Of a stretch of 28,358 nt of DNA, positions 1 to 28,358 are shown in pieces. The DNA lies in the IMG/VR virus record IMGVR_UViG_3300010316_000034, positions 1-28,358 of that record. The stretch is one strand, 5' to 3'. Both the position numbers and the translations under genes were made by a program. The stretch's first letter is position 1. Each line of letters opens with the position of its first letter. Source of the DNA: a virus. The notes beneath the pieces are model-generated. The model was not told the origin of the DNA and made no database searches. It saw nothing but the letters and a program-made list of their open reading frames with translations.

Positions 1-1155
1 AATTACTTGCGATAAAGCATAGTCAGTTGTAACACCATCGCCCGTAAAGGTATCAGTTGTAAAAGTATTACTACCGCCTCCACCGCCGATTGAACCCCAC
101 TCACTGTTTTGGTAGCCTTCAAATTGCTCGTTAGTTGAGTTATAGCGGAACATACCATTAGCTGGTATACCATCTCTTTGAGCTGTAGTACCTGCTGGGA
201 CTTTTACAGATCCTGTGCCTGTCATGGCCATGTTAACAAAGGATGGGCTATCTGTAGTGGCTACACCTTGGTTAAGAGCCTTGACTGATGCAACGGCTGT
301 AAGCTCACTGTCCATTAAGGCTCCAGCGGCTGTAACGTTAGTTGCATCTGTAACATCTGCTAAGGCTTCAATGCCATCTAGCTTAACGCCATCAGTAGCT
401 ACATCACGTCCATCAAAAGTACTGTTGGTTGTTATAGCGCCGGTCATTGCACCACCAGCTTTAGGTAACGCATTGACTGCTGTAGTGCCTTGAGCCGCTG
501 TAGCATAAGCTGTAGAGGCGAATGCTTTAACCTCTGCAAGATTAGTAACTTCAGAATCCATCAAAGCGCCAGCAGCAGTGACATTAATAGTGTCCGTTAC
601 ATCTGCTAATGCTTCAATAGCATTCAGTTTAGTATGGTCTGCATCTGTAAAGACATTAGAATCTATAGCAGCTTCTACAGCAGCACGTATCTCTGCGTTT
701 GTTTGATCAGCGGTGGCTGCTGACTCTATACCATCTAGCTTAGTACCATCAGTAGCTACATCACGCCCATCTACGGTTCCACCAACAACAATGCTATTGG
801 TTACGTTTAACCCTGTAGCTGTAATTGCAGCCGCAGTAGCTGCACCAATGACTGTACCGTCGATGGTGCCTGAGTTAATGTCTGCTGTAGTGGCTACAAG
901 GGATGCAATAGTCCCCAACGAGGTCACATTAGGTTGGGCAGCAGTTTGGAGGGTGCCGGTGACGCCACTATCCTTAAGCAACACGCCATCGATAGTGACA
1001 CCAGCGGCGGCTGTCTTCTCACCTATTGTGTCAGTAGTGAGCCCACCCGTGAACTTGGCAGCAGGCACCACTTCAACCGCTGTTCCTATAACTTTAGTAG
1101 GTGAGCCAGCGAAACCTAAGTCCCCTACTCCTGGTACATCCGATAGTAGTGTCAT
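1..1155 (-). CDS. Repeat-rich tail fibre-like protein, partial (C-terminus off the left edge)
   Basis: An open frame of 385 codons starts with ATG at 1155 and runs off the window without a stop. An AGGGGGT ribosome site lies six bases before the ATG, and the ATG directly abuts the portal stop. The protein is rich in Ala, Thr, Gly and Val. It carries two copies of a module DGRDVATDG-x-KLDGIE (residues about 129-144 and 248-263) and two of EALADVTD..NVTAAGALMDSE (181-202 and 263-284). A GGAMTGAI segment (about 234-241), a form common in phage fibres, precedes the second module. No enzyme motif is visible. Modules of this kind are typical of phage tail or fibre proteins, often from aquatic phages. 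Its place just after the portal is unusual for a fibre, so another virion surface protein is possible. The structural class is fairly sure, the exact role is not. Confidence 0.75.
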   Translation of the reverse strand, partial: MTLLSDVPGVGDLGFAGSPTKVIGTAVEVVPAAKFTGGLTTDTIGEKTAAAGVTIDGVLLKDSGVTGTLQTAAQPNVTSLGTIASLVATTADINSGTIDGTVIGAATAAAITATGLNVTNSIVVGGTVDGRDVATDGTKLDGIESAATADQTNAEIRAAVEAAIDSNVFTDADHTKLNAIEALADVTDTINVTAAGALMDSEVTNLAEVKAFASTAYATAAQGTTAVNALPKAGGAMTGAITTNSTFDGRDVATDGVKLDGIEALADVTDATNVTAAGALMDSELTAVASVKALNQGVATTDSPSFVNMAMTGTGSVKVPAGTTAQRDGIPANGMFRYNSTNEQFEGYQNSEWGSIGGGGGSNTFTTDTFTGDGVTTDYALSQVI

Positions 1156-3561
1156 CTAGACCCCCTGTTTGATTTGACCGGAAGCTTTCAACCTAAGTTC
1201 TGACTCCTTAGTGGAGGCGTCCCTTAGTCTAGCTTCTGCGGTCATTTGGTTGGTTTGTGCTGCCTGTGAATCGGTAGCCTCTTTAGAGAGGGAACGGCTG
1301 GCCTCGATATCCCGTAGTGTCTTGATCTGGGATGCCTTATTGATGGCCTCTTGCTCCTGCTTGTCGAGTTGAGCGAGGAGCCGCTGGGAGTCGATCTGTC
1401 CCATCTGCTGTAGCCTAGTCATCTCTCTGATGTGCTTACGTTCAGCATCGATAGCCTTGAGTTCCAAGGTGGCTGCATCGATCTGCTGCTTGGCTTGCAT
1501 CTCGGCCATACGGAGCTCAATCTCTGCTTCGTTCTTAGCCCTAATGCCTTCAACCTTAGCCTGCTCTGTTTCAAGCTGGGCTTGGGCGATCTGCAACTCT
1601 GGATCAATTGGGGGGTTCTCAGCCTCAGCCTTCTTACGGGTATCTGTCTCGTCTTGTGTCTCTGTGAACTTACCCTGGGGGAACTGCATACCCTCGGAGA
1701 TAGTCCGCATGATGGCCTCAGTCTTCATCCCAGGCAGCCCTGCGGAGTTCTGGAGGAGCATCATCAGGTTCTGTGTGTTGGTCTCACGCTGCATCAACAC
1801 TGAGGAGCCACGAGGCTCGATAGTCATGTTGCCCTTGATTTCATCATCCTCTTCAAACTCCATATGCCAGCTATACTGACGAGTCATAGTAGTCTTGGTA
1901 ATCAAGTCATCGAATCTACGGACTTGTCTACGACGGGCTACTGAGGAGTTGTTCTGGTAGATCTGGGTAGCACCTAATGTCAGGGGAGCGTTGTCAACGC
2001 CAGCGGCGTTCTTCTCAACTCGGGTGACGCCAGTTAGCTTATAAGCATCTTCTTCAGCCTTCTCCATAATCGCAAAGAACTGGTCAAGGTGGATTGGGAT
2101 GTCGTGGACCTCGAAGGGTTTACCCTGAGTTCCATCTGGTAGGTTGAAGGTGTCCCCGTTGATGTACCAGACCTTTCCTCCCCGTAGAGAATAGTCGTTA
2201 GGATCTCCTTCAGCCGGGGTAACCTTAGTTCTTAGCATAGTCACCATAGGGACTGCTGAGACACCACCGTGGTCCAGTATCATCCTCCAAGCAGCGTTGT
2301 AGATTAGCTGGGAATTCTCACCGAGTAATGGGATGGACTTACCGAAGAGACCATTCGGATCTTCATCCCAGCTCCATACGGAGAACGGCATATCGGTAGT
2401 GGCTTGCTGTGGGGATACGAATGCTTTCAGACAGATGCCAGCACAGTGAATCACACAGGCAAACACCTCATCATCACCGTCGTTATCATCATCATCTTCG
2501 GCACCTGGGATGGCCTTAACGCCTGCTCCCCGTAGCATGGCTTTAGGGAAGTCAGCCCAGGTCTCGAAGACCTCGTACCGTTTCCCGTACATGGACTCTG
2601 CGATACAGTTATCACGGATAGCCCTTAGTTCAGTGTCCCCCTCAGAGGTCTGTGCGAGCCCCTCAGGCTTCCTAGCGAGCAGCTCTTCCACTTGCTCGTC
2701 GAAGTAGTCGAGACCCCTCAGGGACCGCACCTGACGTGCTAAGAGCCACTCACGAGTTGAGGCGTGAGACATGTCTTCAGTACACGTAGCTGACATGTCA
2801 GGGAGGAAGTCAATGGGGTTGATGACCTTGTATGTGGCCTGCTGTCGGGTGTCGGAATGTAAGTCCCAAGCGCCCTCAGTCCCCCTTGCCCATCTTCGGT
2901 CCCTCTTGGGGTCCACGAATGGTCCCTTGAGGACTGCCGTACCAGTTTGCCCGCCGGATTCAATTAGGGTTCTACCGAGCTTACCGAACTCGACCCTGTT
3001 CATCGTCCCCTTGATCTTAGTCAGCATACGTTCAACCTTGTGATCCAGGGCTGCCTTACGCCCCTTCCATGCCATTAGGTTGGTTACTGGTTCTCCAGTA
3101 GTTTCATCCACCATTGGTTCGCCGTTAGCGTCAGCCGCTGATTGGTCTTGAATACTCAAGGGGGGCTTAGCGGGGTACACGGGGAGGAGTCCGAAGTTGT
3201 CTTGGTCAGTTGGGTAGAGGAGATCCCCAAGTTGGGAACAGCCATCGTTAGTGATCTGACGGAGGATGTTCTGGACAACCTTAGATCCCTCCTTGAGAGA
3301 TAATCGAGTTCCTTCCCAGAACTCCTCAGAGGTGTCTCTATAGTCCAACCCTACGGCGTTGTAGAGCTCGTATGAGCGTCTGATCTCGTGAGGTATCTGG
3401 GTCTGGTTTCTCCCCTGAATTGCCTCCTCAACAAACTCTCGTGCTTTGATCGCTAGTTGACTCCGCGCATCGAACTTAGTCTGTTGTTCCTTCGGGATAG
3501 CTTTCTCATCAGAGTCAGCTTCCCATTCCTTGGAGTACTGCTCAGCGGGAGTATCTGCCAT
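1156..3561 (-). CDS. Portal (head-tail connector) protein with long C-terminal coiled coil
   Basis: 801 residues, start ATG at 3561, nine bases after the large terminase stop. The N-terminal 550 residues have the look of a podovirus portal, with segments such as VINPIDFLPDMSA (about 247-259) followed by an REWLLARQVRSL stretch. A strongly acidic loop, EDDDDNDGDDE, lies at about 355-365. From about residue 640 to 790 the chain is Gln/Glu/Lys/Ala rich with long heptad-like runs, suggesting an extended coiled coil or barrel. The length is well above the T7 gp8 class (about 535) and closer to P22-like or BPP-1-like portals (700 or more). The portal forms the ring through which DNA is packaged and ejected and docks the terminase encoded just upstream. 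The assignment rests on recognition of the family pattern and on gene order. Confidence 0.85.
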   Translation of the reverse strand: MADTPAEQYSKEWEADSDEKAIPKEQQTKFDARSQLAIKAREFVEEAIQGRNQTQIPHEIRRSYELYNAVGLDYRDTSEEFWEGTRLSLKEGSKVVQNILRQITNDGCSQLGDLLYPTDQDNFGLLPVYPAKPPLSIQDQSAADANGEPMVDETTGEPVTNLMAWKGRKAALDHKVERMLTKIKGTMNRVEFGKLGRTLIESGGQTGTAVLKGPFVDPKRDRRWARGTEGAWDLHSDTRQQATYKVINPIDFLPDMSATCTEDMSHASTREWLLARQVRSLRGLDYFDEQVEELLARKPEGLAQTSEGDTELRAIRDNCIAESMYGKRYEVFETWADFPKAMLRGAGVKAIPGAEDDDDNDGDDEVFACVIHCAGICLKAFVSPQQATTDMPFSVWSWDEDPNGLFGKSIPLLGENSQLIYNAAWRMILDHGGVSAVPMVTMLRTKVTPAEGDPNDYSLRGGKVWYINGDTFNLPDGTQGKPFEVHDIPIHLDQFFAIMEKAEEDAYKLTGVTRVEKNAAGVDNAPLTLGATQIYQNNSSVARRRQVRRFDDLITKTTMTRQYSWHMEFEEDDEIKGNMTIEPRGSSVLMQRETNTQNLMMLLQNSAGLPGMKTEAIMRTISEGMQFPQGKFTETQDETDTRKKAEAENPPIDPELQIAQAQLETEQAKVEGIRAKNEAEIELRMAEMQAKQQIDAATLELKAIDAERKHIREMTRLQQMGQIDSQRLLAQLDKQEQEAINKASQIKTLRDIEASRSLSKEATDSQAAQTNQMTAEARLRDASTKESELRLKASGQIKQGV

Positions 3562-3570: not shown

Positions 3571-5112
3571 CTATAGATAATTAGTTAGGTCTACATTCTT
3601 GATGGTCTTAACGCTTGTCCGAGAGACAAACTCAGTGTGTCGCTTCAATGTGTCGTAGTCTGGGTGACAGAATAAGGCGAGGTATTGAAGTCCATCATGT
3701 GGGTGGCTCTCAGCCGACTTACAAGGGACATCCTTAAACTGGGCCTTACCGGCTACCTGCTTACGGCTGTACTCGTATGATTGGTTGAAGCCCTTAATGA
3801 GCAACTTGCAGGACTTGTCTATCTGGAACATAGGATGCCCAAGACGAGTCTTAGTGGTGAGGAAGTGTCGCACTGAATTCAGGCGAATCTCAGCGTGGTT
3901 ACTCTGGGCTGGCTTAGTGACAAACCAGTCCTTGAAGACACCTATGCGCTCATCATTCAGCACATGGAAGTAGTTCCTACTGTCAGCCGATAAGCCATGA
4001 CTAGAGAGTCCAGCAGGGTCACCTACGGAGATAATCTCCCAACCCTCGGCTGGCGGATACTGCTCCTCCAACCAGGGACGCACGAAGTCCTTGGCGAACT
4101 CTCTGAGGCCAATGTTATCCCCGTAGAACTCCTGTAGAACTCGGAGCTGCCCCGTCTTCATCACCTGTCCAACGATGCAGGACTCACCTCCCCTACCCCA
4201 GTCCCACCCTAATATAATAGGGCAGTCCTTAACGGCAGAGAGATCGGTCTTAGATACGTGGTAGGTGTGGTCCCACTGGCGTCTATAGACAGCCTTACCA
4301 GAACTAGTGACACCGTAGTCACCACAGAAGAGTACCTTCACCTGCTCAGGGGTGAGAGAGCCAACGCGGTCCAGGTAGTAAGCCTTAGGGCCGATACCGA
4401 GATACTTGAAGTTCTCGCCATACGGGTTGAGCATGTACCCCGAGTCGGACTTAGCTGACTTTATGAGTGCAGGGGGCTGTCTGAAGAACTCCCACCCTTT
4501 TGGGGTGTTCTCTTCAATACGAGCTACCCATGAGTCATCCTCAGGGGGGTTCGTATCCATTATCAAGGACACCCGTGTGATAGGGTTGTCGATGTCAACG
4601 GCATTAACTGGTGCTGGGTATCGACCCAACCGACTTAGGACCGCTGATACGATCTCCTGGTCCATCGCACCACACTCATTAATGAATGCACCTGTGAGCT
4701 CCAGACTCTTCAGGTTCTCGTAGTCATCAGGTTTAGCTACTGCCTGGAAGATGAACTCGACATTCAACCTCGTGCCATCTGGCAACGGGTCTGTCCACAG
4801 GATCTTCATTGGGGAGCTCTGTTTGTATCTACGGGTGCTGCTGTTAGGCTTTAGCCATATCTTGAAGGAGGCGAAGGTGGTCTCAAGAAGCTGTGGATAG
4901 GTCTCACGAACGATGACCCACTTGGAGGTCCTCTGGTTGTTCTTATCGGGCTTCTGCTGGATACACATCTTGAGTATCTCAACGATCATCATCGTGGACT
5001 TACCGGAACCCACGTTGCCTAGTACTAATCTGACATCTGCGTTGCTATTGTGGAACTCGACCCCAGTCGGGGATGGCATGTAGGTGATCTGCTGTTCCTT
5101 ATTGGTAAACAT
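3571..5112 (-). CDS. terL: Terminase large subunit (packaging ATPase and nuclease)
   Basis: 513 residues, start ATG at 5112, overlapping the upstream small gene by one base. The ATPase P-loop is LGNVGSGKST (about residues 31-40). VIVRETYPQLLETT (about 67-79) is an adenine-side motif frequent in phage terminases, and the Walker B end is GAFINECG with Glu146. The RNase H-like nuclease shows GWDWG (Asp304), VGDPAG (Asp365) and HPHDGLQYLAL (Asp473). All catalytic positions expected of a working motor and headful nuclease are present. It resembles the terminases of P22/epsilon15/BPP-1-like podoviruses more than T7 gp19. It acts with the small subunit (5425-6096) at the portal (1156-3561). Confidence 0.93.
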   Translation of the reverse strand: MFTNKEQQITYMPSPTGVEFHNSNADVRLVLGNVGSGKSTMMIVEILKMCIQQKPDKNNQRTSKWVIVRETYPQLLETTFASFKIWLKPNSSTRRYKQSSPMKILWTDPLPDGTRLNVEFIFQAVAKPDDYENLKSLELTGAFINECGAMDQEIVSAVLSRLGRYPAPVNAVDIDNPITRVSLIMDTNPPEDDSWVARIEENTPKGWEFFRQPPALIKSAKSDSGYMLNPYGENFKYLGIGPKAYYLDRVGSLTPEQVKVLFCGDYGVTSSGKAVYRRQWDHTYHVSKTDLSAVKDCPIILGWDWGRGGESCIVGQVMKTGQLRVLQEFYGDNIGLREFAKDFVRPWLEEQYPPAEGWEIISVGDPAGLSSHGLSADSRNYFHVLNDERIGVFKDWFVTKPAQSNHAEIRLNSVRHFLTTKTRLGHPMFQIDKSCKLLIKGFNQSYEYSRKQVAGKAQFKDVPCKSAESHPHDGLQYLALFCHPDYDTLKRHTEFVSRTSVKTIKNVDLTNYL

Positions 5113-5414
5113 CAGGTCTTCCCATTAGCCGTCTGCATGAACTGGAGGAGTAACTGGGAGAAGCCCTCTACGAACCTCTCGTTGGAGGAGAGCTCACACT
5201 CTCCCATAGTATCTAGGATCATATGGGTCAACTCGTGATAGAAGGTTTGTACCTGGGCCTGCTTGTTGAACTCAGGATTCACCTTCTGGAGGAAGATCGC
5301 CTGGAGGGCAGGGATGCACAGGCCGTATGCTGCTGACTTGACTATCAGGGTATCCTGTATAGCCACAGAGACAACACTAGGGCCTAAGGAGAAGGACTTG
5401 GGAATGGTCTTCAT
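5112..5414 (-). CDS. Small HExxH zinc metallopeptidase-like protein
   Basis: 100 residues, start ATG at 5414, lying between the terminase subunits. The sequence FYHELTHMILDTMG holds a textbook HExxH zinc motif (His60, Glu61, His64). It is followed 15-19 residues on by SNERFVEGFSQLL, where Glu79 or Glu83 could be the third ligand, as in gluzincins and IrrE/ImmA-like minimal peptidases. The protein is far shorter than a usual secreted protease and has no signal peptide. The substrate is unknown. Position within the packaging cluster suggests a role in the phage particle or late in infection, but a host-directed role is equally possible. The zinc-site reading is firm; peptidase activity is inferred. 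Confidence 0.7.
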   Translation of the reverse strand: MKTIPKSFSLGPSVVSVAIQDTLIVKSAAYGLCIPALQAIFLQKVNPEFNKQAQVQTFYHELTHMILDTMGECELSSNERFVEGFSQLLLQFMQTANGKT

Positions 5415-5424: not shown

Positions 5425-6096
5425 CTAGTGAGTCAACTTGTGGACTTCGTCTTCCCCCGGATCTAGCTCACCCAGCTCTATAGTCTCATCAGGTCTCTCG
5501 TATGGCTCCTCTTGGATACCACCGAAGTTGAAGATGAGTTGGGGTGCTTGATCTAGCTGCTTCTGATCCCACATCATCAGCGATGAGAGGAGGGTGGCAG
5601 CTCTATGCTGGGATACGTTATCCCAACCATAGGTGCCATCCGTGTTACGCCTGATGAAGTTCACTGCGGGGAGGAACCGAGCTTCAATCGCATGGAGTGG
5701 CTTAGGGATCAAGCTGAACTTGCCCTCAATGACAGTCCCATTGCCATTCTGGTAGGGGACCATCTCACACACGTCGAAGATACTTGCTAAGGATTGGTTA
5801 AGGAGCTTCACACAGAGAGCCGCTTGGCCCCCTGATAGTTGCTCCAAACGAGAAGCTAGCAGCTCATCTATAGCTGCCACCACCTCAGGCTTACTCAACA
5901 CCCGATCCCGTATGGTATCTAGGAGCTGCTTCTTCTTATCACTATAGCCAGCCGCTAGTCCCGCTTGGACTTTATCAAGAGTATCGCAGTAGACCATAAC
6001 AAAGGTCTGATGCATTGGTGAGAGGGAGTCGAAGATGGGGGTGTGGAATCTCTTGGATACCTTCCCGTCATCAGTAGGGCTATTCAGTTCGGTCAT
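5425..6096 (-). CDS. terS: Terminase small subunit (DNA recognition)
   Basis: 223 residues, start ATG at 6096. The N-terminal third contains QTFVMVYCDTLDKVQAGLAAGYS followed by LSKPEVVAAIDELLASRLEQ. This is the helix-turn-helix style arrangement of the Terminase_2/XtmA family, in which the chain recruits itself to phage DNA and the final P-x-V-x-x-A-I helix closes the domain. The C-terminal tail is acidic (LGELDPGEDEVHK), as often seen in small subunits that contact the large subunit. It sits two short genes upstream of the large subunit. The role is to recognise phage DNA and regulate the motor. The assignment rests on motif and context. Confidence 0.8.
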   Translation of the reverse strand: MTELNSPTDDGKVSKRFHTPIFDSLSPMHQTFVMVYCDTLDKVQAGLAAGYSDKKKQLLDTIRDRVLSKPEVVAAIDELLASRLEQLSGGQAALCVKLLNQSLASIFDVCEMVPYQNGNGTVIEGKFSLIPKPLHAIEARFLPAVNFIRRNTDGTYGWDNVSQHRAATLLSSLMMWDQKQLDQAPQLIFNFGGIQEEPYERPDETIELGELDPGEDEVHKLTH

Positions 6097-6161: not shown

Positions 6162-6473
6162 CTACTTCTGTTTCCAGCTAAGGAGCTTATCTACTCCAAA
6201 AACTGAGAGGGTTATCGTACCCACCATCCCTACATACCAATCAGGTAGTTCAGCCATTAAGGCGAACCCCTTAGCAGCGTAGGGTTGCAACGGGGGTACA
6301 AAGGTCATTACTAACGGGGCCATCCAGACAAACACTAGGAACTCATCGGAGTACCCAGGGATGCCAGTAGTGAGTCGTACTACCTTAGCCTCGGCCTTAG
6401 CTGCTGAGACCTTCTGCCTCCCCTGAAGGAAGGTACTAACCAGACCTAAGCCAGTCGAGACTAATGGAAGCAT
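6162..6473 (-). CDS. Holin-like small membrane protein
   Basis: 103 residues with an AGGAG ribosome site about eight bases before ATG 6473. A hydrophobic N-terminus (1-16) is followed by a charged stretch and two clear membrane segments, about residues 44-62 (FLVFVWMAPLVMTFVPP) and 78-98 (DWYVGMVGTITLSVFGVDKLL), ending in KQK. This pattern, with YSDEF before the first strong segment and LPDWY before the last, matches the 3TM holin family also found in gene transfer agents. A holin makes the inner-membrane lesion that lets the cell-wall hydrolase reach its target. It is the first gene of the minus operon, while the likely endolysin (21773-22189) is at the end of the plus operon. Confidence is good for the membrane topology and fair for the function. 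Confidence 0.78.
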   Translation of the reverse strand: MLPLVSTGLGLVSTFLQGRQKVSAAKAEAKVVRLTTGIPGYSDEFLVFVWMAPLVMTFVPPLQPYAAKGFALMAELPDWYVGMVGTITLSVFGVDKLLSWKQK

Positions 6474-7148
6474 TACGTGACTCCTAAGGTGGACGCATGC
6501 GGGATCTGCTTGAAAGGCAGTTGGGTTCGTTCAGCCGCCGCTCTAGAGTGAACATAGTAAACCGCATCAGGTTCACTAGGTGTAACCAGGTAGATAGAAG
6601 CCTCAGGGGAAACCTTAGGGGTATGGCGGGGGGAAACTGTGGACATACTTTAGGTGAACCTCAAGTTGACTATTATTTGGAATAGAAAAAGCTGCGCGAT
6701 TGCATACAGTACTCCCCCCGACGCCGCAGACCCACAGGGGGGTGGGGGGTCCTATCAAGTGGGATCTCAGGGGCTGGAATAGGGGCCCCCCATGCCCTTT
6801 TAGGCCGACCGTTTGTTTAGGTATCACCAGGTTACCCCAGTGTTTACGTGGCCTGCAGCCTGTTTGGCGGGTATGAATAGCGTGTGAGTGTATAAGGTGG
6901 TCTATATGACCAACTAATAGCGGGCCTAACGGGTGACATTAGGGGCAACGATACGAGACCGCATTGATCATAGGGGTCAACTTCTCCACTTTTGCCAATT
7001 GTCTGTGCGTTCTAAAGGTGCAGCTTCTTATCGCTATACAGTCTAAGCATATTGGTGCATTGGTGTTGCTATCTGCACTGGTACATCTTAACGTGTCCCC
7101 AGGTTGAAACGAAACGAACCACTAACGAGAACAATACGGGGTAACACA
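6474..7148. promoter_or_regulatory. Divergent control region between the minus (late) and plus (early) operons
   Basis: 675 bases between the start of the holin (minus) and the first early gene (plus). No convincing gene lies here. It holds a ribosome site for the holin (about 6481-6490 on the minus strand), a cluster of G-runs (6737-6785), a GGTC..GACC inverted repeat around TATAT (about 6898-6912), and a minus-strand word resembling a T7-type promoter core (6880-6896). Host sigma-70 promoters for lysogenic or early transcription must be expected in or near this region, but no -35/-10 pair stands out with good boxes and spacing. A 62-codon frame at about 6497-6685 with a possible AAGGTGG site is too Arg-rich and isolated to call. 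Confidence 0.55.
6737..6785 (+). other. G-run array with quadruplex potential
   Basis: On the plus strand six Gs, one T and six Gs are followed within 36 bases by GGG, GGGG and GGGG, at 6737-6742, 6744-6749, 6761-6763, 6770-6773 and 6782-6785. The last run passes directly into six Cs (6786-6791), which could pair with the early G-runs as a 7-bp TGGGGGG/CCCCCCA stem. The tract can therefore form either a quadruplex or a GC-rich hairpin. It lies in the middle of the divergent intergenic region. Confidence 0.5.
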
Positions 7149-7907
7149 ATGACAAGACCATTAGGACTAATCGCATATGAGGGACCATCACTGATTGATG
7201 GCGTAACGCCTATCGTTATGATTATCACCGGCATCGATGGGGGCAGCACTAATAGCAAGACGGGTCATATGGTGCAGACTCATATACTAGTAGCCGACGC
7301 ACTGCCAATGGCAGCACTGCAGACTGGCTTAGACAAGGCAATATGCGGAGACTGTAAGCATAGGGGCGATGGCGCCGGTAACGGCAGAACCTGTTATGTG
7401 CGAATCTATCAAGCACAAACGGGCATTATAAAAGCATATCATCGGGGCCGTTATGCTGCCTGGTTGCCAGAACACGACAAGCACCTAGCGGGCAAGCCTA
7501 TACGGTTCGGGTCCTATGGTGACCCTGCAGCGGTCCCAACTGTCATATGGGAGAGACTCGCGGACCTCGCATCACTCACCACTGGATACACTCACCAATG
7601 GCGCACCATGCCAAATATAAGTCACGTGGTCATGGCCAGTGCAGATACAGCACAAGATGCTATTGACGCGCATCAATTAGGTTATCGCACTTTTAGGGTT
7701 GGCATAGATGGCGACGTGCAATCGAAAGGTGAGGTTTTGTGTCCCGCTTCAAAGGAGGCTGGGCAGAAACTCCAATGTGCTGATTGCGGGTCATGTAATG
7801 GAACTCAAACGGGGCGCAAGGGTTCGATCTTTATCAACCTACATGGGGGCACATCTGTCATGGCTAATGCTGACAAGCTTAAGGTCCGGTTAATCGCTAG
7901 CGCCTAG
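7149..7907 (+). CDS. Cys-rich phage protein of unknown function (DUF7227-like)
   Basis: 252 residues from ATG 7149; a TTG at 7104 would add 15 residues that look unlike the family. Two cysteine clusters stand out: CGDC with Cys82 (Cys66, Cys69, Cys82), and Cys198 with CADCGSC (Cys210, Cys213, Cys216), consistent with a metal or iron-sulfur site. A central PIRFGSYGDPAAVP (about 117-130) and ATP-independent-looking alpha/beta segments follow. I recognise this as the widespread phage family with ICGDCxHR, TCYV, RxGSYGDPAAVP and an Asn/Lys-Thr-Gly N-terminal segment (here NSKTG, 35-39). The biochemical role is not known to me. As the first gene after the divergent region it is probably expressed early. 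Confidence 0.7.
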   Translation: MTRPLGLIAYEGPSLIDGVTPIVMIITGIDGGSTNSKTGHMVQTHILVADALPMAALQTGLDKAICGDCKHRGDGAGNGRTCYVRIYQAQTGIIKAYHRGRYAAWLPEHDKHLAGKPIRFGSYGDPAAVPTVIWERLADLASLTTGYTHQWRTMPNISHVVMASADTAQDAIDAHQLGYRTFRVGIDGDVQSKGEVLCPASKEAGQKLQCADCGSCNGTQTGRKGSIFINLHGGTSVMANADKLKVRLIASA

Positions 7908-9272: not shown

Positions 9273-9310
9273 CTAATAAGTGTGCTACTAGAAGATATGA
9301 TAAAGAATCA

Positions 9311-9363
9311 ACTTAAGATTCAACTAAGGATAACTAAAGCATGACTAAGGTTTATAACTAAGG
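9311..9363 (+). repeat. Phased ACTAAGG iteron-like repeats
   Basis: Three exact copies of ACTAAGG begin at 9323, 9344 and 9357, with ACTAAAG at 9333 and ACTTAAG at 9311. Start-to-start spacing is 12, 10, 11 and 13 bases, so all lie near the same face of the helix. They lie in an AT-rich 290-base gap upstream of the winged-helix gene. Candidate roles are an operator array for that regulator or a replication start region. Confidence 0.5.
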
Positions 9364-14791: not shown

Positions 14792-14796
14792 ACAAC

Positions 14797-15969: not shown

Positions 15970-15971
15970 TA

Positions 15972-20502: not shown

Positions 20503-21251
20503 ATACCACCCTACTGCTTGACTCGGACATCTTCGCATTCCAAGTATCAGCGACACACCAGAGCACCTCCCCTTGGGGGACATGGACCTACTTTGAGGAG
20601 GCATGTAAGGAACTCGATACCCGTGTGGCTCACCTGATGGAAGACCTAAAGGCAGACGAGGCGATCATGTGCCTCACTGATCCCTTGGACAACTGGCGCT
20701 ACAACATCAGGGATAACTACAAGGACCGTGACAGGAGTAACCGCCCTGTCCTGCTCACTGATCTGAAGGAGTATCTAGCCAATGAGTATACATGCTATCA
20801 GAGGGATTCTCTCGAAGCTGACGATGTTCTGGGAATCCTATCGACGCACCCTAGCTTGGTATCTGGAAGACGCATCATCGTATCCGAAGACAAAGACCTG
20901 CGTACAGTGCCAGGGCTCCTCTTCAATCCTCGCAGACCAGAGCTGGGTGTCTTGGAAATCTCTCAACAGGAAGCGGCTGCGTTCCACATGTGGCAGACCA
21001 TCGTGGGAGATCCAACGGACGGGTTTGGGGGTGCGCGTGGTGTGGGCAAAACGTCCGAGTATGCAACTGACATCATTGCATGTGACATGCCTGAGATGTG
21101 GGACTGCGTACTCGACGCATTTGCTTCAGTCGGAGCTGATGAATGCGAGGCACTGGAGAACGCTCGGATGGCTAAGATCCTAGACCACCACCACTACAAC
21201 TTTAAGACAAAGGAGGTCCTACTATGGAACCCAATAGCCCTCGATTACTAA
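20499..21251 (+). CDS. 5'-3' exonuclease, T7 gp6-like (FEN fold)
   Basis: 250 residues from GTG 20499, which overlaps the upstream stop; ATG 20481, which has AGGAG eight bases upstream, would add six residues and is a real alternative. The N-terminus MNTTLLLDSD (Asp8, Asp10) is typical of the family. SLEADDVLG (Glu106, Asp108, Asp109), VSEDKDLRTVPG (Asp131, Asp133), and GDPTDGFGGARGVGKTSE (Asp171, Asp174, helix-three-turn-helix about 175-186) complete the two-metal site. It degrades host DNA, removes primers and processes ends, as gp6 does. The following small gene begins within its 3' end. Confidence 0.88.
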   Translation: MNTTLLLDSDIFAFQVSATHQSTSPWGTWTYFEEACKELDTRVAHLMEDLKADEAIMCLTDPLDNWRYNIRDNYKDRDRSNRPVLLTDLKEYLANEYTCYQRDSLEADDVLGILSTHPSLVSGRRIIVSEDKDLRTVPGLLFNPRRPELGVLEISQQEAAAFHMWQTIVGDPTDGFGGARGVGKTSEYATDIIACDMPEMWDCVLDAFASVGADECEALENARMAKILDHHHYNFKTKEVLLWNPIALDY

Positions 21252-21463: not shown

Positions 21464-21773
21464 CCCGTTAGACACACAAGTTGGTGGGGTTCACTATAAG
21501 GACCTGCCGATCCAGCCGGTGGAATACATACTGGCTAATGGCATCGGCTACATCCCAGGCAACATCATTAAATACATTACCAGATACCCCTATAAGCATA
21601 AGGATGGGTTGGAAGATTTGGAGAAGTGCCAGCACTACTTAGACATACTAGTGGCCCACTTGAAAGCTCCTCAGTCCACAACGCCCGTGCAGACTAACTT
21701 GAAGCTCAACGATGTAAACCCACGCCAGTGGGATGTCGCCAAAAGCTATGGACTACTAGCGGGGCAGGATTAA
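21453..21773 (+). CDS. DUF3310 protein
   Basis: 106 residues from GTG 21453 with GAGAGGA upstream. QVGGVHYKDLPIQPVEYILANGIGYIPGNIIKYITRYPYKHK (about 9-50, in pieces) followed by GLEDLEKCQHYLDILV is the full DUF3310 pattern (VGGxHY, QPxEYI, GNxxKYxxRxxxK, DLxKAxxYL). The family is found in many T7-like and other phages and is sometimes annotated as a nucleotide kinase or metabolic partner without firm proof. Its stop and the next start share TAATG. Confidence 0.82.
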   Translation: MPSNPLDTQVGGVHYKDLPIQPVEYILANGIGYIPGNIIKYITRYPYKHKDGLEDLEKCQHYLDILVAHLKAPQSTTPVQTNLKLNDVNPRQWDVAKSYGLLAGQD

Positions 21774-22189
21774 TGAGCGACTTCAAGATGAAGCACTTCA
21801 TCCCACAGGAACTCGTGCCCCGCTCCCTCTTCCAGAAGTATGGAGAGCAGTCCATTCGTTACCTCGACCCTCGTATGCTAGCCGTTTTGGAAGTCATCAG
21901 GGAATGGTTAGACGCCCCTATGACTGTCAACAACTGGCACTCAGGGGGTAACCGTGAGTGGTCCGGTATCCGCACCGCAGACAGCCCCTGGTGGTCAGTA
22001 GGGTCAGCCCATAGTTGGGGCATGGCTATCGACGCTGTCGGTGATTGGGAAGCAGAAGAAGTACGATCAGCAGTCCTCAGTGGGCAACTTGAGTTACCGT
22101 ATCCAGTTCGACTGGAGATGGGCATCGATTGGCTCCATGTGGACGTAATGAACATCAGTCAGAAACCAGTGGAGATATTCTACCCATGA
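21773..22189 (+). CDS. M15-type peptidase, probable endolysin
   Basis: 138 residues from ATG 21773, with CAGGAT upstream. GSAHSWGMAIDAVG (about 77-90) is the SxHxxGxAxD motif of M15/VanY-type peptidases, with zinc ligands His80 and Asp87, and WLHVDV gives His122; Glu115 in RLEMGIDW is the likely catalytic base. There is no signal peptide or membrane segment, so release would need the holin (6162-6473). The likely substrate is the peptide of murein. The gene lies far from the holin and on the opposite strand. The fold is sure; the cell-lysis role is inferred from family and phage context. Confidence 0.82.
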   Translation: MSDFKMKHFIPQELVPRSLFQKYGEQSIRYLDPRMLAVLEVIREWLDAPMTVNNWHSGGNREWSGIRTADSPWWSVGSAHSWGMAIDAVGDWEAEEVRSAVLSGQLELPYPVRLEMGIDWLHVDVMNISQKPVEIFYP

Positions 22190-22392
22190 GCAGTGAGATA
22201 GCAGATCAGTTGAAAGGTATAGACCAGCAGGTCACGAGTGTCCTCAAGAACCTCATCATGTTACAGCGAGAGCTGAAACAACAGGAGGAGCAGTACGCAG
22301 CCCTGACGAATGCACTAGCCGGTGTTGAGCTAGGACGTAAGGCTGAACTAGAAGACAGGGATGCAGCAATAAAACCCCCAACAAGCATATAG
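22186..22392 (+). CDS. Small coiled-coil protein, unknown
   Basis: 68 residues from ATG 22186, overlapping the peptidase stop by four bases. Most of it is one long amphipathic helix (QLKGIDQQVTSVLKNLIMLQ, then RELKQQEEQYAALTNALA), so a coiled coil is likely. It has no signal peptide or membrane anchor, so it does not fit a classical spanin. Its last codons also encode one arm of the minus-strand terminator. It is the last gene of the plus operon. Confidence 0.55.
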   Translation: MSSEIADQLKGIDQQVTSVLKNLIMLQRELKQQEEQYAALTNALAGVELGRKAELEDRDAAIKPPTSI

Positions 22393-22404
22393 CCTGAAGG
22401 GGGG
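22371..22404 (-). terminator. Minus-strand terminator
   Basis: On the minus strand, a C-run (from 22404) pairs with GGGGG (22379-22375) across a loop of about 20 bases and is followed by TTTTATT. It can end transcripts from the right-hand virion block. Part of it overlaps the last plus-strand gene. The loop is long, so efficiency is uncertain. Confidence 0.45.
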
Positions 22405-22420
22405 TCCGAGGAAACACTTA

Positions 22421-22454
22421 CCTCACCATAGAGAAGATCCTATGGTGGGGTTTT
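22421..22454 (+). terminator. Intrinsic terminator of the plus-strand operon
   Basis: CCTCACCATAG (22421-22431) pairs with CTATGGTGGGG (22440-22450) as an 11-bp stem with one G-T pair and an eight-base loop, followed by TTTT (22451-22454). It stands between the last plus gene and the end of the convergent minus operon, just where a terminator is needed. Confidence 0.8.
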
Positions 22455-22459
22455 AACGG

Positions 22460-24748
22460 CTACTCTTGGTCAGAGTCTTCAAAGACGATTCCTCGCCTAA
22501 CGATGTTACGGAGCATCTCCTCATAACGACGAGTACCACCACCTTTGTATTGCTGTGCGAAGGCATCGATGAACCCTTCAGCCGCCTTAAGACCACCTGC
22601 ACGGTAGGTCTGTTCAGCAGCGTCATAAGCCTCCAGTTCCATCTGGTATCGCACCTTCTCACTCACTTCACCCTTTGTCATATTACCGACGGCAGCGAGT
22701 CTTCTAGGCTGACCTATACCAACGTCAGTAACCTTGGGGAGCACAGCCGTGGCGATCATCGCTGCGTTACGTTTACCACCTGAGGGCAGGAAGCGGAGCG
22801 AAGAAAGGAGCAGTAAGCCAGAGCCCGATGGGTTGTCCCGAAAGCCCCCGAGGGTTGTCACATCTCGCATCTGCCAAGACTTAGCAGCGCGGTTGATGAA
22901 GTCCTTCCCATAGGTAGCACCTTCCCATAGGGTATCTTGAGCGTCAGGGTGTATGGTCCCTTTGAGAGAGGCTTCAAACTTCTTCCCATCAAATGGGATA
23001 CCACCCCCCTTAGTCCTTGCTCTACCCGTACCCGCAGTGGCAGCTTCGAGGGCTTGTAGTAGAGGGGCTTGTTGAACACTCTTCCAGACCTCATCTCCTC
23101 CTTCCATACCCATCAGCCTAGCTTTAACAGTCTTCAGGTTCCTGGTGTCCTGACCCTTCGTCAGCTTAGTGATCGCTTGATCCATCGCAATCCTTGGGCC
23201 CTTACCTTCTCCAGCACTGTTGGCAATCATGTTGATGACGGACTTCTCATCCCAGTTTTGACTGAACTCAGCCCGTAGGGTCCTTGCTGTGACCGCAGCT
23301 CTTTGAGTAACAGAGCCTCCAATCTTAGGATCAGCTAGAGCACCATCAATGAAACCATCGAGGAGCTCCTTAGCTTGTTCAATAACCTGCTTATCTCCGT
23401 TGTTGAGTTTGCCATTACCATAGAATGCGTTTAGCTCTTTACGCAATTGCTCTGAGGTGCCAAAGGTGAGCTGCTTGCCAGGACCCCCCACTCTCTTAGC
23501 CAGATACTCCACGGAGTCCTTCGCCGTGACGTTGGCACTGACGCCATACTTCTGGAATATCTCCTGGACCTTTGGGCCGACAGAGGACGCCACAGGGATA
23601 TCCATACGGGAGACACCAGTCGCGAGTTGGTCCTTACCAGGGAGGATATAGTTCTGGGTAAGGGCCAGCTCATCTAACCGCTCATACGCCTCAACGTAGG
23701 CATCCTTAGCTTTATCGCGAGATGAACTTAACGACTCAGCTAGTAGCCTATTAGCATCAGAGAAGGTCTTCCCTGCTGACTCACCGAACTGTTCAACGAA
23801 CAGAGTAGCCCGCGCTGTGACAGCCTCCTCCTGATCTGCAATGAAGTCCTCAATCATGTCAGAGCTAATGTCATTCGCGTTCCGCATGTCCTTCACTTCT
23901 TGAAGGGAGGTACGGGTAGCGGCGGCAGTATTACCATCGATAGTATAGCCACCAAACTCATCAGCCTCTTGAACTCGTGGGGTTATGGTCTCATCTATAC
24001 GGGCATTAACAGTATCCTCGATGCCTGACTTAGATCTCCCGAGGGCCCGTATGTATCCACCACCCACATCCATAGCGCCACCTAATAAGGCACCACCAGC
24101 GATATTCGCTCCTGCACCAATAGCAGCATCAGTGAGGCGGGAACCCTCCCCCTTACCTTCTGATGTCAGGAAGCCAGAGGCTGCCCCTTCTAGCCCTAAT
24201 GTGCCACCGGCAGCCAGCCATCCTGTTGATGCCCTGCCAGCAGCACTAAGGCCGCCCTTAATGAGGCCCCCTGAGAGGCCCCCTAAAGGAGCTAGAGCAA
24301 TACCCTCCCCGACAATATCCCCTGCACCATAGGCCCAAGGAGATCGTTTCTGGTATTCAGCGTCAGCTAGCTTGCGATCCGACTTCAGCTTGTTAAGCCC
24401 TGCCAGTACATCCTCATCACCGTTAAAGTCAGCAACCAGTCTACCAACGTCAGTACCAATGTTTCTGAATCCAGTATATGCCCCACGGCCAAAGTCCCCA
24501 GCAGCTTCTACCGTTGAGGCGGCAAGTCCTGGGACTCCTTCTTCAACAGCGTTGGCAGCTCTCTGCCCAGGAGCGAAGAACCCCGAGGGCTCGCTAGATG
24601 ATCCAGCAGGTGGTTCACTACGGACTGCATCAGCTAGCTTTTGAGCATCCTCGCGTGCTCTCCGAGCTTCCTCAGGGGGTGTGTTTGGGTTGGTTGCTAA
24701 TGCGTCAGCCACCCTTAGAGATGCTAACAAGTCATCTCGTCTACTCAT
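22460..24748 (-). CDS. Large internal virion/ejection-type protein
   Basis: 762 residues; the start overlaps the upstream stop by one base. The N-terminal 60 residues are charged and Ala-rich. Residues about 60-230 hold long Gly/Ala-rich, weakly hydrophobic runs (GDIVGEGIALAPLGGLSGGL, then GAGANIAGGALLGGAMDVGGG), the kind that can line a membrane channel. The rest is mostly helical with many charged residues and has no enzyme motif that I can see. Such large, mixed proteins lying with small Gly/Ala-rich and coiled-coil partners are typical DNA-ejection proteins of P22/BPP-1-like podoviruses. It is the last gene of the minus block. The role is inferred from composition and context. Confidence 0.65.
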   Translation of the reverse strand: MSRRDDLLASLRVADALATNPNTPPEEARRAREDAQKLADAVRSEPPAGSSSEPSGFFAPGQRAANAVEEGVPGLAASTVEAAGDFGRGAYTGFRNIGTDVGRLVADFNGDEDVLAGLNKLKSDRKLADAEYQKRSPWAYGAGDIVGEGIALAPLGGLSGGLIKGGLSAAGRASTGWLAAGGTLGLEGAASGFLTSEGKGEGSRLTDAAIGAGANIAGGALLGGAMDVGGGYIRALGRSKSGIEDTVNARIDETITPRVQEADEFGGYTIDGNTAAATRTSLQEVKDMRNANDISSDMIEDFIADQEEAVTARATLFVEQFGESAGKTFSDANRLLAESLSSSRDKAKDAYVEAYERLDELALTQNYILPGKDQLATGVSRMDIPVASSVGPKVQEIFQKYGVSANVTAKDSVEYLAKRVGGPGKQLTFGTSEQLRKELNAFYGNGKLNNGDKQVIEQAKELLDGFIDGALADPKIGGSVTQRAAVTARTLRAEFSQNWDEKSVINMIANSAGEGKGPRIAMDQAITKLTKGQDTRNLKTVKARLMGMEGGDEVWKSVQQAPLLQALEAATAGTGRARTKGGGIPFDGKKFEASLKGTIHPDAQDTLWEGATYGKDFINRAAKSWQMRDVTTLGGFRDNPSGSGLLLLSSLRFLPSGGKRNAAMIATAVLPKVTDVGIGQPRRLAAVGNMTKGEVSEKVRYQMELEAYDAAEQTYRAGGLKAAEGFIDAFAQQYKGGGTRRYEEMLRNIVRRGIVFEDSDQE

Positions 24749-25908
24749 CAGTAAGAGCCTCCCTTATTGAAGTCTAATTTGGCTGAGGGGTATCTGTTTA
24801 TTAACTCATCCGCCTCCTCAGTGGACATAGGCGGCGGGCTTTCTGCTCCAAACTCCCAGTTATGCCCCTCGACTCGCTTAGAGTCGCCCAGCACGGCCTC
24901 GTTGGGTTTGAACGCACCAACCTCTTTAAGCCCATTTGCGCGGGCAGCAGTGAGGGCTGCGGACCTTGCAATATCTACAGCGGTGTTACGGGTCGCACCC
25001 TCACCAGCAGCCTCACTAAACGCATTCAGAGAGACTTTCATAATAGATAACTTAACCCTGATGGTCTCAGGTTTATCACCAGCCAAAGGGATGAAGGAGC
25101 GATAACGAGCAGCTTCAGCATCTGAACCAGCCGCGCCCGACTCACCCTTAAAGAGTGACTCAGCGAACCGCTCAGCGTTGACATTGAACACCTGTCCTTC
25201 TTCGGTCATTAGGTAGTTACCGAATCCGATATTAGCGGCGACTCTATCCGTGAGGGCAGTGGCCGAGCTTAAGTCATAGCCATCCGCTAGGGACTTCTCA
25301 AGACCCTTATACGTTTCCTCCATACTGGTGCTGTGGAGCTTCATCTTGGTTTGAGCTTCAGTCCGTTGCTTTGCACTAGTCACCTTACCGCCAGCACTGA
25401 GCTTGACATAGTACCCTTCTGGATTAATACCGTAGTCAGGGTCAGCGCCAATGACACCAATACGTGCACCATCCTTGTTTAGGCGAACCATAGTTGGCAC
25501 AGCCCCTTTAGTCCCAGGCTCAACTGCCACACCCGCCTCATCAAGATACAAGGTCTCTGTTACGGCTCCATCCCCTTCTTCCTTTGTCTCCAAGGCAAGA
25601 CGAGCAGCTTCTCGGTCAGCTATTTGCAACTCACGAGCAGCTTCTAGGTCAGTTAATTGCAACTCACGAGCGGTAGCTTGATCCGCTACGACGTTAGCTC
25701 GATCCTCCGTTCTCTCTTTAGTTCTCTGCCCAAGGAGCAGATCTCTATCCGCAACCTTCTCAGCCCGCGCTAAAGCTAACGCCTCGGCATTCTTCTTCTG
25801 GATGGCAACATCGCCGTAGTACTTACCGGCTCCTTGTATCGCATCACCTAAAGCCTGACCGAAGCCATAGCGCACTGGTCTTCTTGGATCTTCTGAGTAT
25901 CTAGGCAT
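24748..25908 (-). CDS. Coiled-coil internal virion protein, putative
   Basis: 386 residues, start ATG 25908. Residues about 35-110 are almost wholly helical and highly charged, with an 11-residue tandem repeat (RELQLTDLEAA and RELQIADREAA at about 81-102). The middle has a beta-rich segment (TETLYLDEAGVAVEPGTKG). The C-terminal half is helical. The N-terminus (YGFGQALGDAIQGAGKYY) resembles the start of other phage ejection-block proteins. It overlaps both neighbours, so translation of the block is coupled. No enzyme motif is visible. The likely role is a virion-interior or tail-associated protein. Confidence 0.6.
   Translation of the reverse strand: MPRYSEDPRRPVRYGFGQALGDAIQGAGKYYGDVAIQKKNAEALALARAEKVADRDLLLGQRTKERTEDRANVVADQATARELQLTDLEAARELQIADREAARLALETKEEGDGAVTETLYLDEAGVAVEPGTKGAVPTMVRLNKDGARIGVIGADPDYGINPEGYYVKLSAGGKVTSAKQRTEAQTKMKLHSTSMEETYKGLEKSLADGYDLSSATALTDRVAANIGFGNYLMTEEGQVFNVNAERFAESLFKGESGAAGSDAEAARYRSFIPLAGDKPETIRVKLSIMKVSLNAFSEAAGEGATRNTAVDIARSAALTAARANGLKEVGAFKPNEAVLGDSKRVEGHNWEFGAESPPPMSTEEADELINRYPSAKLDFNKGGSY
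25602..25668 (-). repeat. 33-bp in-frame tandem repeat
   Basis: Two near-identical 33-base units (25602-25634 and 25635-25667) share GCAACTCACGAG and GAGCAGCTTCT, with a decayed third unit beginning at 25668. They encode the 11-residue repeat of the coiled-coil protein. Recent duplication within the gene is the simple explanation. Confidence 0.65.
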
Positions 25909-26455
25909 CGGCCATAAACCCCCTTAGTTCGTCTTCATCAAAGTCGCCTTGGTTGGCCCCCATGTAGCTCTCTATACCAATCGCATACGCCTCGGCCATG
26001 TCATTCTCGGACAGGTCTATCTCAGGCTGAGCCATCTCCAGAAGCTCTGTGAGCTCCTCTACAGCACGCTCACCTATAGCCCCTAACACGTCATCAGTTG
26101 CACCTGGAGTCTGCCTCTTGAGCACCCCTACGATGTCTGCGGCGAGGGTCCCAATGCCATGCACAGGGTCCTGCGCCGACATGATGGCGGTCAATGCCTG
26201 GTTAGACTTATCGGCGCCATGCACCATCTCTAGCAGCGCCTTCTCCATCTGGGATACCATTGCCTGTTCCTCGGGACCCGCCTCTACTTCCTGTAGTTCC
26301 CTATCGGCCACCTGCTCCATCTGCTGACGGTGACCCACACGTTGTTGCTGAGCTGATGCGCCTGCATCTACCTCGTTATCTCGTGAGTATTGATCTTCAG
26401 CCACGACCTGTTGTTCGTCCTGCTGGCGTCCCTTAATCTGATCTAGGATATTCAT
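25901..26455 (-). CDS. Acidic Gln-rich virion-block protein, unknown
   Basis: 184 residues, overlapping the downstream gene by eight bases. The N-terminal third is very rich in Gln, Glu and Asp (GRQQDEQQVVAEDQYSRDNE, then QQQRVGHRQQMEQ). A helical middle (QMEKALLEMVHGADKSNQAL) and an acidic C-terminus (GDFDEDELRGFMADA) follow. No domain is recognised. Its place between the Gly/Ala-rich protein and the coiled-coil protein suggests a small partner of the ejection machinery or an assembly chaperone. Confidence 0.55.
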   Translation of the reverse strand: MNILDQIKGRQQDEQQVVAEDQYSRDNEVDAGASAQQQRVGHRQQMEQVADRELQEVEAGPEEQAMVSQMEKALLEMVHGADKSNQALTAIMSAQDPVHGIGTLAADIVGVLKRQTPGATDDVLGAIGERAVEELTELLEMAQPEIDLSENDMAEAYAIGIESYMGANQGDFDEDELRGFMADA

Positions 26456-27189
26456 TAGCCGCCCCCTCGGTTCAGTGCATAGGTATCACTCTGGGCATCA
26501 TAAGCCCACGTGGTTGAAGGGCGGGGTGGTTGGTTGGTCGCCATACGTCCCCAGCCCCCTGCGTAGCCTCCGATACTGTCACCGATATTCAAGACAGTTC
26601 CTGCGTTCCTACGTCGGTCAGCCATCTCCTTCTCGTATGCCTCTTCCTCAGCTTTAGCCTTAGCTGCCCCTGAGAGCATCATGCCCCCCGTAGTGAGACC
26701 TGCGGCTAGCACAGCGCCTGCACCCGCAGACATACCCCCAGCGGCGGCGGCAGTACCAGCAGCAACACTACCAGCAGCGGCGGTTCCAGCAGCGGCGGTT
26801 CCTCCATAGACAAGCCCTGTCCCACTCTGGAGTACTGGGAGTGCAGCAGTGCCCGCAGCAGTAGTGCCCGCAGCCCCTCCACCCATACCTAACGCCCCAC
26901 CTATGCCACCACCTATGATAGCGGCATTGCCAGCGAAGTTCGCACCTATAGCGCCTAGTCCCCCACCAATGGCACTGCCACTTGCAGCAACCCCACTAGC
27001 AGCGCCAGCTAAACCCGCCCCCGCAGGAGCCGCCAGGAACCCAGCAGCGGCACCCGCAGTAAAGTAGATAGCAGCGGCGATGACGATGGCTTTGAAGATC
27101 TTGTTCTTCATTACCTTCTTAACGACCTTCTTCAGGAACTTGAAGGTCTTCTTATAGGCTTTCTTAATTGATTTGATTAGCCCACTCAT
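26455..27189 (-). CDS. Gly/Ala-rich membrane-active virion protein, putative
   Basis: 244 residues, start ATG 27189. The N-terminus is a cationic amphipathic helix (KSIKKAYKKTFKFLKKVVKK, about 6-25) followed by a hydrophobic segment (IFKAIVIAAAIYFTAGAAAGFL, about 31-52, in two parts). About 130 residues then are nearly all Gly, Ala, Ser and Thr. A charged helix (KAKAEEEAYEKEMADRRR) and a polar tail close it. This suits a protein that inserts into the host membrane during DNA ejection. It is unlike a holin in its length and low-complexity body. The role is inferred from composition and neighbours. Confidence 0.6.
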   Translation of the reverse strand: MSGLIKSIKKAYKKTFKFLKKVVKKVMKNKIFKAIVIAAAIYFTAGAAAGFLAAPAGAGLAGAASGVAASGSAIGGGLGAIGANFAGNAAIIGGGIGGALGMGGGAAGTTAAGTAALPVLQSGTGLVYGGTAAAGTAAAGSVAAGTAAAAGGMSAGAGAVLAAGLTTGGMMLSGAAKAKAEEEAYEKEMADRRRNAGTVLNIGDSIGGYAGGWGRMATNQPPRPSTTWAYDAQSDTYALNRGGG

Positions 27190-27632
27190 AATCTATAATA
27201 CTCCTCTGATGCCTTGTTGAACCCGTGTCTCTCAAGTAGCTTCTTGAGCCCAGGTTGCATCTGGCTGGTGGTAAATGATTTGAACAGCACGTCGGGCTTT
27301 GATTCAGCCCAGTCTATAAATGACTTGAACATCAGGATGAAGTCCTTACTGCCGCGATGGTCTGGATGTATGTACACCCCGAGTTGTGCTGCTATATAGC
27401 CTACGCAATATGCGTGGGGCTTGAGCTCCCCCATGTAGCACCCTACGATCTCGTTAGAGTCCGATAGGGCTACACGGGCAAAGCCGTTGTCACTCGCTAT
27501 AACTGCTTTAACGTGATCCAACAGTCGCATCTTATCGACACGTAGGTGGCGCTCAACGCTGTTAACATTGAGGCTCTCTAGGAGGAGTGAGGCGATCTTA
27601 ATGGAGTCCCTATGAACGGCTTGACGTATCAA
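27186..27632 (-). CDS. GNAT-fold acetyltransferase-like protein in the virion block
   Basis: 148 residues from TTG 27632, overlapping the upstream stop (TTGA). The first ATG in frame, at residue 35, would remove the first strand and helix of the fold, so TTG is preferred. QLGVYIHPDHRGSKDFILMF (about 83-102) is the acetyl-CoA-binding motif A of GNAT enzymes, with the R-G-S turn, and LKKLLERHGF..ASEEYYRL (about 129-148) is the usual C-terminal end. T7 gp13 and small GNAT-like proteins in other podovirus virion blocks occupy a similar place. It may modify a virion or host protein, or serve only structurally. Confidence 0.72.
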   Translation of the reverse strand: MIRQAVHRDSIKIASLLLESLNVNSVERHLRVDKMRLLDHVKAVIASDNGFARVALSDSNEIVGCYMGELKPHAYCVGYIAAQLGVYIHPDHRGSKDFILMFKSFIDWAESKPDVLFKSFTTSQMQPGLKKLLERHGFNKASEEYYRL

Positions 27633-28357: not shown

Positions 28358-28358
28358 A

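Follow-up and report, generated by a model that had tools for sequence, protein, structure and literature searches.

Must a T7-type RNA polymerase and its replication genes travel with a T7-type virion? This polymerase is treated as the hallmark of a phage order whose replication and virion genes are taken to move as a set. The question is raised by a linear IMG/VR record, IMGVR_UViG_3300010316_000034, analyzed here over its whole length of 28,358 bases (the window), in which T7-type genes on the plus strand are joined to virion genes on the minus strand. A sequence-only reading of this DNA had proposed a mosaic lineage distinct from the T7 group. We conclude with high confidence that the window is an incomplete genome from a probably temperate podovirus lineage, in which the early module of temperate T7-like phages is combined with virion and packaging genes of another podovirus type, carried on the opposite strand. 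This reading draws on gene content and order, trees, boundaries recovered in independent contigs, a tRNA-Asn fragment and hairpins, and from these we infer lysogeny, promoter function and packaging.

The open reading frame (ORF) map agrees with the two-strand layout that the sequence-only reading had described, with a single divergent and a single convergent boundary. The early arm occupies the plus strand from 7.1 to 22.4 kb and the virion genes the minus strand. A non-coding divergent control region of ~0.6 kb (6474–7103), seen in both the ORF map and the sequence, separates the late (minus) from the early (plus) arm, and the convergent boundary lies at 22393–22459. While Autographivirales are defined in part by one transcribed strand, the window uses two, and the layout is identical in a second IMG/VR contig, IMGVR_UViG_3300013116_000265 (27.7 kb; G494).

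The early arm itself is clearly of T7 type. A MarR-like helix-turn-helix (HTH) regulator (9563–9931, plus strand, as are all early genes below; PHROG 9665, PF01047 above cut-off) and a tyrosine integrase (10292–11257; PHROG 1, E 1.2e-38; PF00589) lie directly upstream of an 804-residue T7-type single-subunit RNA polymerase (RNAP; 11327–13741; PHROG 414, E 9.5e-176; PF00940, E 1.6e-88), as in the temperate T7-like group of LUZ100/Pasto type. The T7 catalytic residues D537, K631, Y639 and D812 are all conserved, and the top PDB matches are T7 RNAP chains. As in Autographivirales, conserved T7-type replication genes adjoin this polymerase: a gp2.5-like single-stranded DNA-binding protein (SSB; 14788–15576; PHROG 112), a RusA-like Holliday junction resolvase (15577–15969; PHROG 34), a T7-type primase-helicase (15972–17594; PHROG 239; 48% identity to RHEph01/LUZ100), a T7-type DNA polymerase (17604–19568; PHROG 17) and a T7 gp6-type exonuclease (20481–21251; PHROG 107). 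All of the plus-strand assignments made from the letters alone (RNAP, SSB, primase-helicase, DNA polymerase, exonuclease and integrase) were thus matched to PHROG or Pfam families. The gene order, from regulator and integrase through RNAP, SSB, resolvase, primase-helicase and DNA polymerase to exonuclease, matches that of the temperate T7-like Autographivirales phages Pseudomonas LUZ100, Caulobacter S2B and Rhizobium RHEph01, with identities to the isolates listed of 29–31% for RNAP, 35–39% for DNA polymerase and up to 48% for primase. In an RNAP tree of 29 rows, the window and G494 form a pair (100/100 support) within a 98/95 clade containing S2B, jiawei and others. These comparisons support membership of the early half in the known temperate T7-like group.

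A candidate attP (10163–10269) immediately precedes the integrase gene: the 3' half of a tRNA-Asn(GTT) gene, complete with its CCA end, flanked by a 24-nt inverted repeat (10163–10186 and 10246–10269). Exact 48-nt matches to it were found only in four gammaproteobacterial metagenome-assembled genomes (MAGs), which suggests a gammaproteobacterial host. This arrangement is compatible with integration into tRNA-Asn, and the lineage is probably temperate. Since the contig traverses the attP-like site without entering host DNA, the sequenced molecule seems to represent the phage form rather than an integrated prophage. Where the window has its MarR-like gene, ahead of the integrase, G494 instead carries a Cro/C1-type HTH gene (L218 2701–3324), which suggests that the lysogeny switch can be exchanged among members of the lineage.

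The minus strand carries a different kind of virion. Its portal (1156–3561, minus strand, as are all late genes below; 801 aa; PHROG 1216) gave profile matches to the PDB portals 7sxk, 9nwm and 7z44, and only large portals of 705–747 residues were matched in the PDB profile search; the identification of 7sxk as the DEV entry was considered and ruled out. As the sequence-only reading had held, this portal is unlike that of T7: it shows no detectable similarity to T7 gp8 (profile comparison E 0.48) and no PF12236 match. Portals 49–56% identical to it occur in at least 16 IMG/VR contigs, members of its virion clade. The terminase large subunit (TerL; 3571–5112; PHROG 2, E 3.5e-26) shares 73–79% identity within the clade, and in the TerL tree the window belongs to a clade of ten (100/100), made up entirely of IMG/VR contigs, with very long branches between this clade and six T7-type TerLs. 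The terminase small subunit (TerS; 5425–6096; PHROG 51, PF03592) has 43–51% identical homologs adjoining TerL in relatives. Separate trees, which had been proposed as a check, place TerL in a clade of its own and RNAP among the temperate T7-like phages, with no shared clade.

The label P22/BPP-1-like, also given to these subunits from sequence, may apply loosely to TerL, but not to the portal, which is of the large-portal type, or to the clade's capsid, which is nearest to that of Pseudoalteromonas phage Y3. BcepC6B has a TerL 29.5% identical to the window's, yet it groups with Y3 outside the window clade, and its 549-aa portal is absent from the 32 records matched by the window portal; the best portal matches were Y3, Pmp11, StenR_269 and HMO-2011-type phages. 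The clade capsid, read in relatives, belongs to PHROG 1357 and is 45% identical to the Y3 capsid, annotated as 'N4-gp56 family', and 35% identical to that of StenR_269. T7-type portal, TerL, capsid and tail tube proteins are among the seven core genes of Autographivirales (PMC11092137); the portal and TerL of the window are not of this type, and capsid and tail were examined in relatives only. No giant virion RNA polymerase of Schitoviridae type was found in the window, whose late operon is incomplete, or among the late genes read in IMGVR_UViG_3300047375_001061 (G014), a relative described below.

Such a combination is unusual among relatives of either arm. None of 49 virion-relative records, many of them fragments, contained PF00940, and none of 50 RNAP-relative records contained a window-type TerL; T7-type portals were found in 32 of these 50 RNAP-bearing records, including all of those of 30 kb or more. 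Misassembly was therefore the first concern. A search of IMG/VR with the window RNAP alone gave no close relatives, and G494 was found through alignments, primase above all. On one strand, G494 encodes an integrase, RNAP (44% identity), SSB, RusA, primase (61%), DNA polymerase (~55%), exonuclease (53%), a kinase-like gene and an endolysin (49%); on the other, it encodes homologs of the window's 762-, 386-, 184- and 244-aa, GNAT and end genes, and the two strands meet at the same convergent boundary. The other side of the genome is covered by G014, which runs unbroken from TerS, TerL and portal through a scaffold-position gene, capsid, and adaptor-position and tail genes into homologs of the genes at the right end of the window. 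A first early gene of the GP88 family, divergent from the TerS side of G014, is 73% identical between G014 and G494. A further contig, L162 (TerS, TerL, portal), overlaps the late end of G494 by 1468 nt at 98.6% identity. Positions 1–548 of L162 hold one part of what appears from sequence to be a DNA methyltransferase gene, and the beginning of the early arm of G494 (end of L375) holds another, each truncated by a contig end, a split consistent with L162 and G494 being neighboring parts of similar genomes.

We weighed these observations against two other explanations. The window could be a metagenomic chimera, assembled from a T7-like phage and a podovirus unrelated to it: the combination is absent from known isolates, the contig is a fragment, and the tetranucleotide profiles of its two arms correlate slightly less well than those within most single phage genomes. 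Against this, the convergent junction recurs in G494 with early proteins 44–61% identical to those of the window, and both ends of the late arm are joined in G014, which shares its first early gene with G494. The boundary itself also bears on the question. Two opposed hairpins with U tails, likely back-to-back terminators, occupy 22370–22455 (fold z −4.7 and −3.1); no shuffle folded as well, and across a gap of 67 nt each hairpin lies beyond the end of the opposite arm. Because the two are interlocked in this way, a single break could not have given each arm its own terminator. Finally, both arms share a rare avoidance of AAAA (0.24 and 0.11 of expectation) and CCGG (0.19 and 0.19). Misassembly is very unlikely, and we give a chimera of this kind little credence.

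Alternatively, an ordinary temperate Autographivirales phage might simply carry an inverted or diverged T7 virion block, as its early module and its gene order, those of LUZ100 and S2B, would suggest. The portal comparisons with T7 gp8 and PF12236 argue otherwise, as do a TerL that falls outside all T7-type TerLs with 100/100 support and a clade capsid matching PHROG 1357 and the N4-gp56-type capsid of Y3, so that we regard this explanation as extremely improbable. The proposal of a mosaic lineage distinct from the T7 group consequently stands in its separate TerL and RNAP trees and its opposed strands, but the early half falls within a known temperate T7-like group.

Several observations weigh against a joined, temperate T7-like lineage. 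It is represented by partial contigs, with no complete genome. The correlation of 0.815 between the window arms is slightly below the 0.86–0.95 found between halves of twelve phage records. Among 294 to 391 genomes sampled from the candidate host order, none was seen to hold a prophage with the two modules together; a single-subunit RNAP match occurred in 8 of 294 genomes and a weak TerL match in 1 of 391. No RNAP was found in the four MAGs with the matching tRNA, nor did the window yield a family of repeated phage promoters. In favor of joined arms, 0.815 exceeds the correlation of either arm with every other record compared (0.62 at most), leaving aside two virion contigs of the same clade, L160 and L169 (0.73–0.85), and G494's two arms correlate at only 0.69.

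Composition offers two further observations. The avoidance of AAAA and CCGG is shared by L160 and L169, but not by G014 (AAAA at 1.56 in L018). Runs of A or T are avoided throughout the window (52% GC), with 16 runs of at least four A and 17 of at least four T, relative to 154 of at least four C and 121 of at least four G.

The window is a fragment that begins and ends within the late operon. It yielded no gene for a major capsid, scaffold or tail-tube protein, and in relatives the genes absent from the window sit between its two late ends. In G014, ~10.8 kb separate the end of the portal from the equivalent of the window's right end. Given this spacing, ~10–11 kb of late operon (scaffold, capsid, tail) probably lie outside the contig, and the whole genome probably measures 38–40 kb.

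We then compared this organization with known systems. LUZ100, S2B and RHEph01 share the order of the early genes, and LUZ100 also shares a candidate T7-class promoter just before the polymerase gene, but these phages carry a T7-type virion on the same strand, and their RNAPs are only ~30% identical to the window's. The window differs from temperate T7-like phages in the type of its portal and TerL (and, in relatives, its capsid) and in their opposite strand. A precedent for the general kind is roseophage CRP-7 (MK613349; PMC6918029, 2019), in which T7-like RNAP and replication genes oppose a non-T7 virion across a convergent boundary. Its RNAP, however, is only 22–26% identical to those of the window and G494 over the main aligned part, its order is DNA polymerase, exonuclease, primase and RNAP with no annotated integrase, and its TerL, portal and capsid have no detectable homology to those of the window lineage. 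With a distant RNAP, another gene order and a non-homologous virion in CRP-7, the window lineage represents an independent combination.

The virion module also has relatives among other phages. TerLs homologous to the window's (29.5–34%) occur in Y3, Pmp11 (Pasteurella) and BcepC6B (Burkholderia), and homologous portals (24–27%) in Y3, Pmp11 and StenR_269 (Stenotrophomonas), but none of these four phages encodes a T7-type RNAP within the compared stretches, and replication is instead by lambda-like O/P in Y3 and O/DnaB in Pmp11. Cronobacter phage Ss1 and Vibrio phage VA-RY-3 resemble the window in TerL (34%) and in a layout of two strands, diverging at one boundary and converging at another, but their replication genes include a DNA polymerase III alpha and they have no RNAP. 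HMO-2011-type marine phages have a distantly related portal (~24%) and were absent among the matches of the window TerL; an integrase and a different DNA polymerase architecture are reported for them (PMC6918029).

The literature searched, mostly outside subscription journals, held no description of this lineage, so the window represents a real phage lineage, apparently undescribed, whose general kind has a precedent in CRP-7. In a repeatedly sampled natural lineage, then, a polymerase–integrase–replication module has been joined in opposite orientation to another kind of virion. This shows that the T7 engine can be exchanged as a single block and blurs the definition of the order, and the lineage offers a natural experiment on whether a T7-type polymerase must also drive virion genes.

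Which enzyme reads the late arm is the question this experiment poses. A candidate T7-class promoter core, ACCACTATAGG, lies at 11213–11223 (plus strand), ~105–115 nt upstream of the RNAP gene. It is the sole match in the window at up to 1 mismatch, relative to a mean of 1.7 in shuffles; as a single match is expected by chance, we give it weight because of its position and its recurrence in G014, where the core also precedes the first early gene, and in G494, where a related motif lies upstream of the polymerase gene. Where they precede the first early gene, in G494 and G014, the copies overlap the ribosome-binding region, which may contribute to their conservation. The late strand of the window gave no copy of the core, and neither did the G014 late arm with up to 3 mismatches allowed. 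The standard scans for sigma-70 promoters and for terminators performed at chance level, and the terminator scan missed both hairpins detected by folding.

A different 20-nt element, TCAACTTRAGRTTCAMCTAA, occurs at 9308–9327 (plus strand) upstream of the MarR gene and at 6650–6669 (minus strand) ahead of the late operon; the 9.3-kb copy begins a row of ~11-bp repeats ending in CTAAGG or CTAAAG (9304–9362), and the element could be an operator or a set of iterons. The pattern was derived from its two copies, so its count in shuffles is no independent test.

Because no copy of the candidate promoter turned up on the late strand, we lean slightly toward the host RNA polymerase, rather than the phage enzyme, as the reader of the late arm. 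The phage RNAP might nonetheless also transcribe the virion operon from diverged minus-strand promoters, leaving the T7 scheme whole but running in two directions. The record of T7 itself has phage promoters for late genes, and TCAACTTRAGRTTCAMCTAA recurs upstream of both arms in opposite orientation; on the other side, within the window a T7-class promoter-like core was seen only before the polymerase gene, the G014 late arm is without a match, and TCAACTTRAGRTTCAMCTAA does not resemble a T7 promoter. We rate transcription of both arms by the phage enzyme at a little under an even chance. Under the stronger proposal that the T7-type polymerase has been uncoupled from virion production, it would serve only its own gene, replication and lysis while the host polymerase reads the late operon; this we hold only tentatively and would sooner doubt than adopt. 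To our knowledge, an uncoupled enzyme would be the first Autographivirales-type polymerase without late-gene transcription.

Taking the window as a temperate T7-like engine joined to a different virion, its cycle may run as follows. The host RNA polymerase would transcribe the plus-strand early region first, and the MarR-like regulator and integrase would decide lysogeny, with integration into the tRNA-Asn 3' half. LUZ100 offers a parallel: there, one transcript from a host-type promoter covers both the MarR-like regulator and the integrase, and a phage promoter precedes the polymerase gene (PMC10134795). In the lytic cycle, the T7-type polymerase would amplify its own transcription from the T7-class promoter just upstream and drive the plus-strand SSB, RusA, primase-helicase, DNA polymerase, exonuclease and lysis genes. 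The virion operon on the minus strand would have its own expression, starting from the 0.6-kb divergent region, and the two opposed terminators would shield it from the early arm; TerS and TerL would package DNA into a capsid of N4-gp56/Y3 type.

The remaining late genes flank these modules. At the left end, a tail-fibre-like gene of 385 codons, truncated by the contig end (1–1155; PHROG 892, E 6e-47; short match at the same place in L216), directly follows the portal, where most relatives have a scaffold-position gene. Between TerS and TerL lies a 100-aa protein (5112–5414; PHROG 1233; 47% homolog at the same place in L217) with a zinc-protease-like HExxH motif (HELTH). The first late-strand gene encodes a small membrane protein, probably holin-like from its sequence (6162–6473; PHROG 2524), with homologs in the T7-like contigs L220, L243, L302 and L144.

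Toward the right end, the last late gene encodes a 762-aa putative internal or ejection protein by position (22460–24748; 771-aa homolog at the same place in G494), preceded in the direction of transcription by genes for proteins of 386 aa (24748–25908; homologs at the same place in G494 and G014), 184 aa (25901–26455; 45–47% homologs in G014 and G494) and 244 aa (26455–27189; 42% homologs in G494 and G014), a GNAT-like protein (27186–27632; PHROG 1249; same place in G014 and G494) and a protein truncated at the contig end (27629–28357; homologs of 388 aa in G014 and 459 aa in G494). Apart from the GNAT gene, proteins encoded at 22460–27189 gave no PHROG or Pfam match above chance, and just two or three homologs are available for the late proteins of unknown function. 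The description of these proteins as ejection-type accordingly keeps its positional basis but gains nothing from families, and homology to the last late genes of Ss1 and VA-RY-3 was rejected, the profile comparison not being significant.

In the early arm, the first gene (7104–7907; 267 aa; PHROG 2554) is a homolog of Caulobacter S2B gp064c (45% identity), and an endolysin gene (21728–22189; PHROG 894) lies near the convergent boundary. Within the replication module, a 235-aa protein (19795–20502) resembles Lipase_3, barely above the Pfam cut-off; an alpha/beta hydrolase encoded by relatives where their late arm begins gave no BLAST match to it. Among the records compared, IMGVR_UViG_3300046665_000193 (78,980 bp; L245, L247) carries two T7-type primase-helicase genes (41% and 40%) ~44 kb apart and is possibly two joined or neighboring phages.

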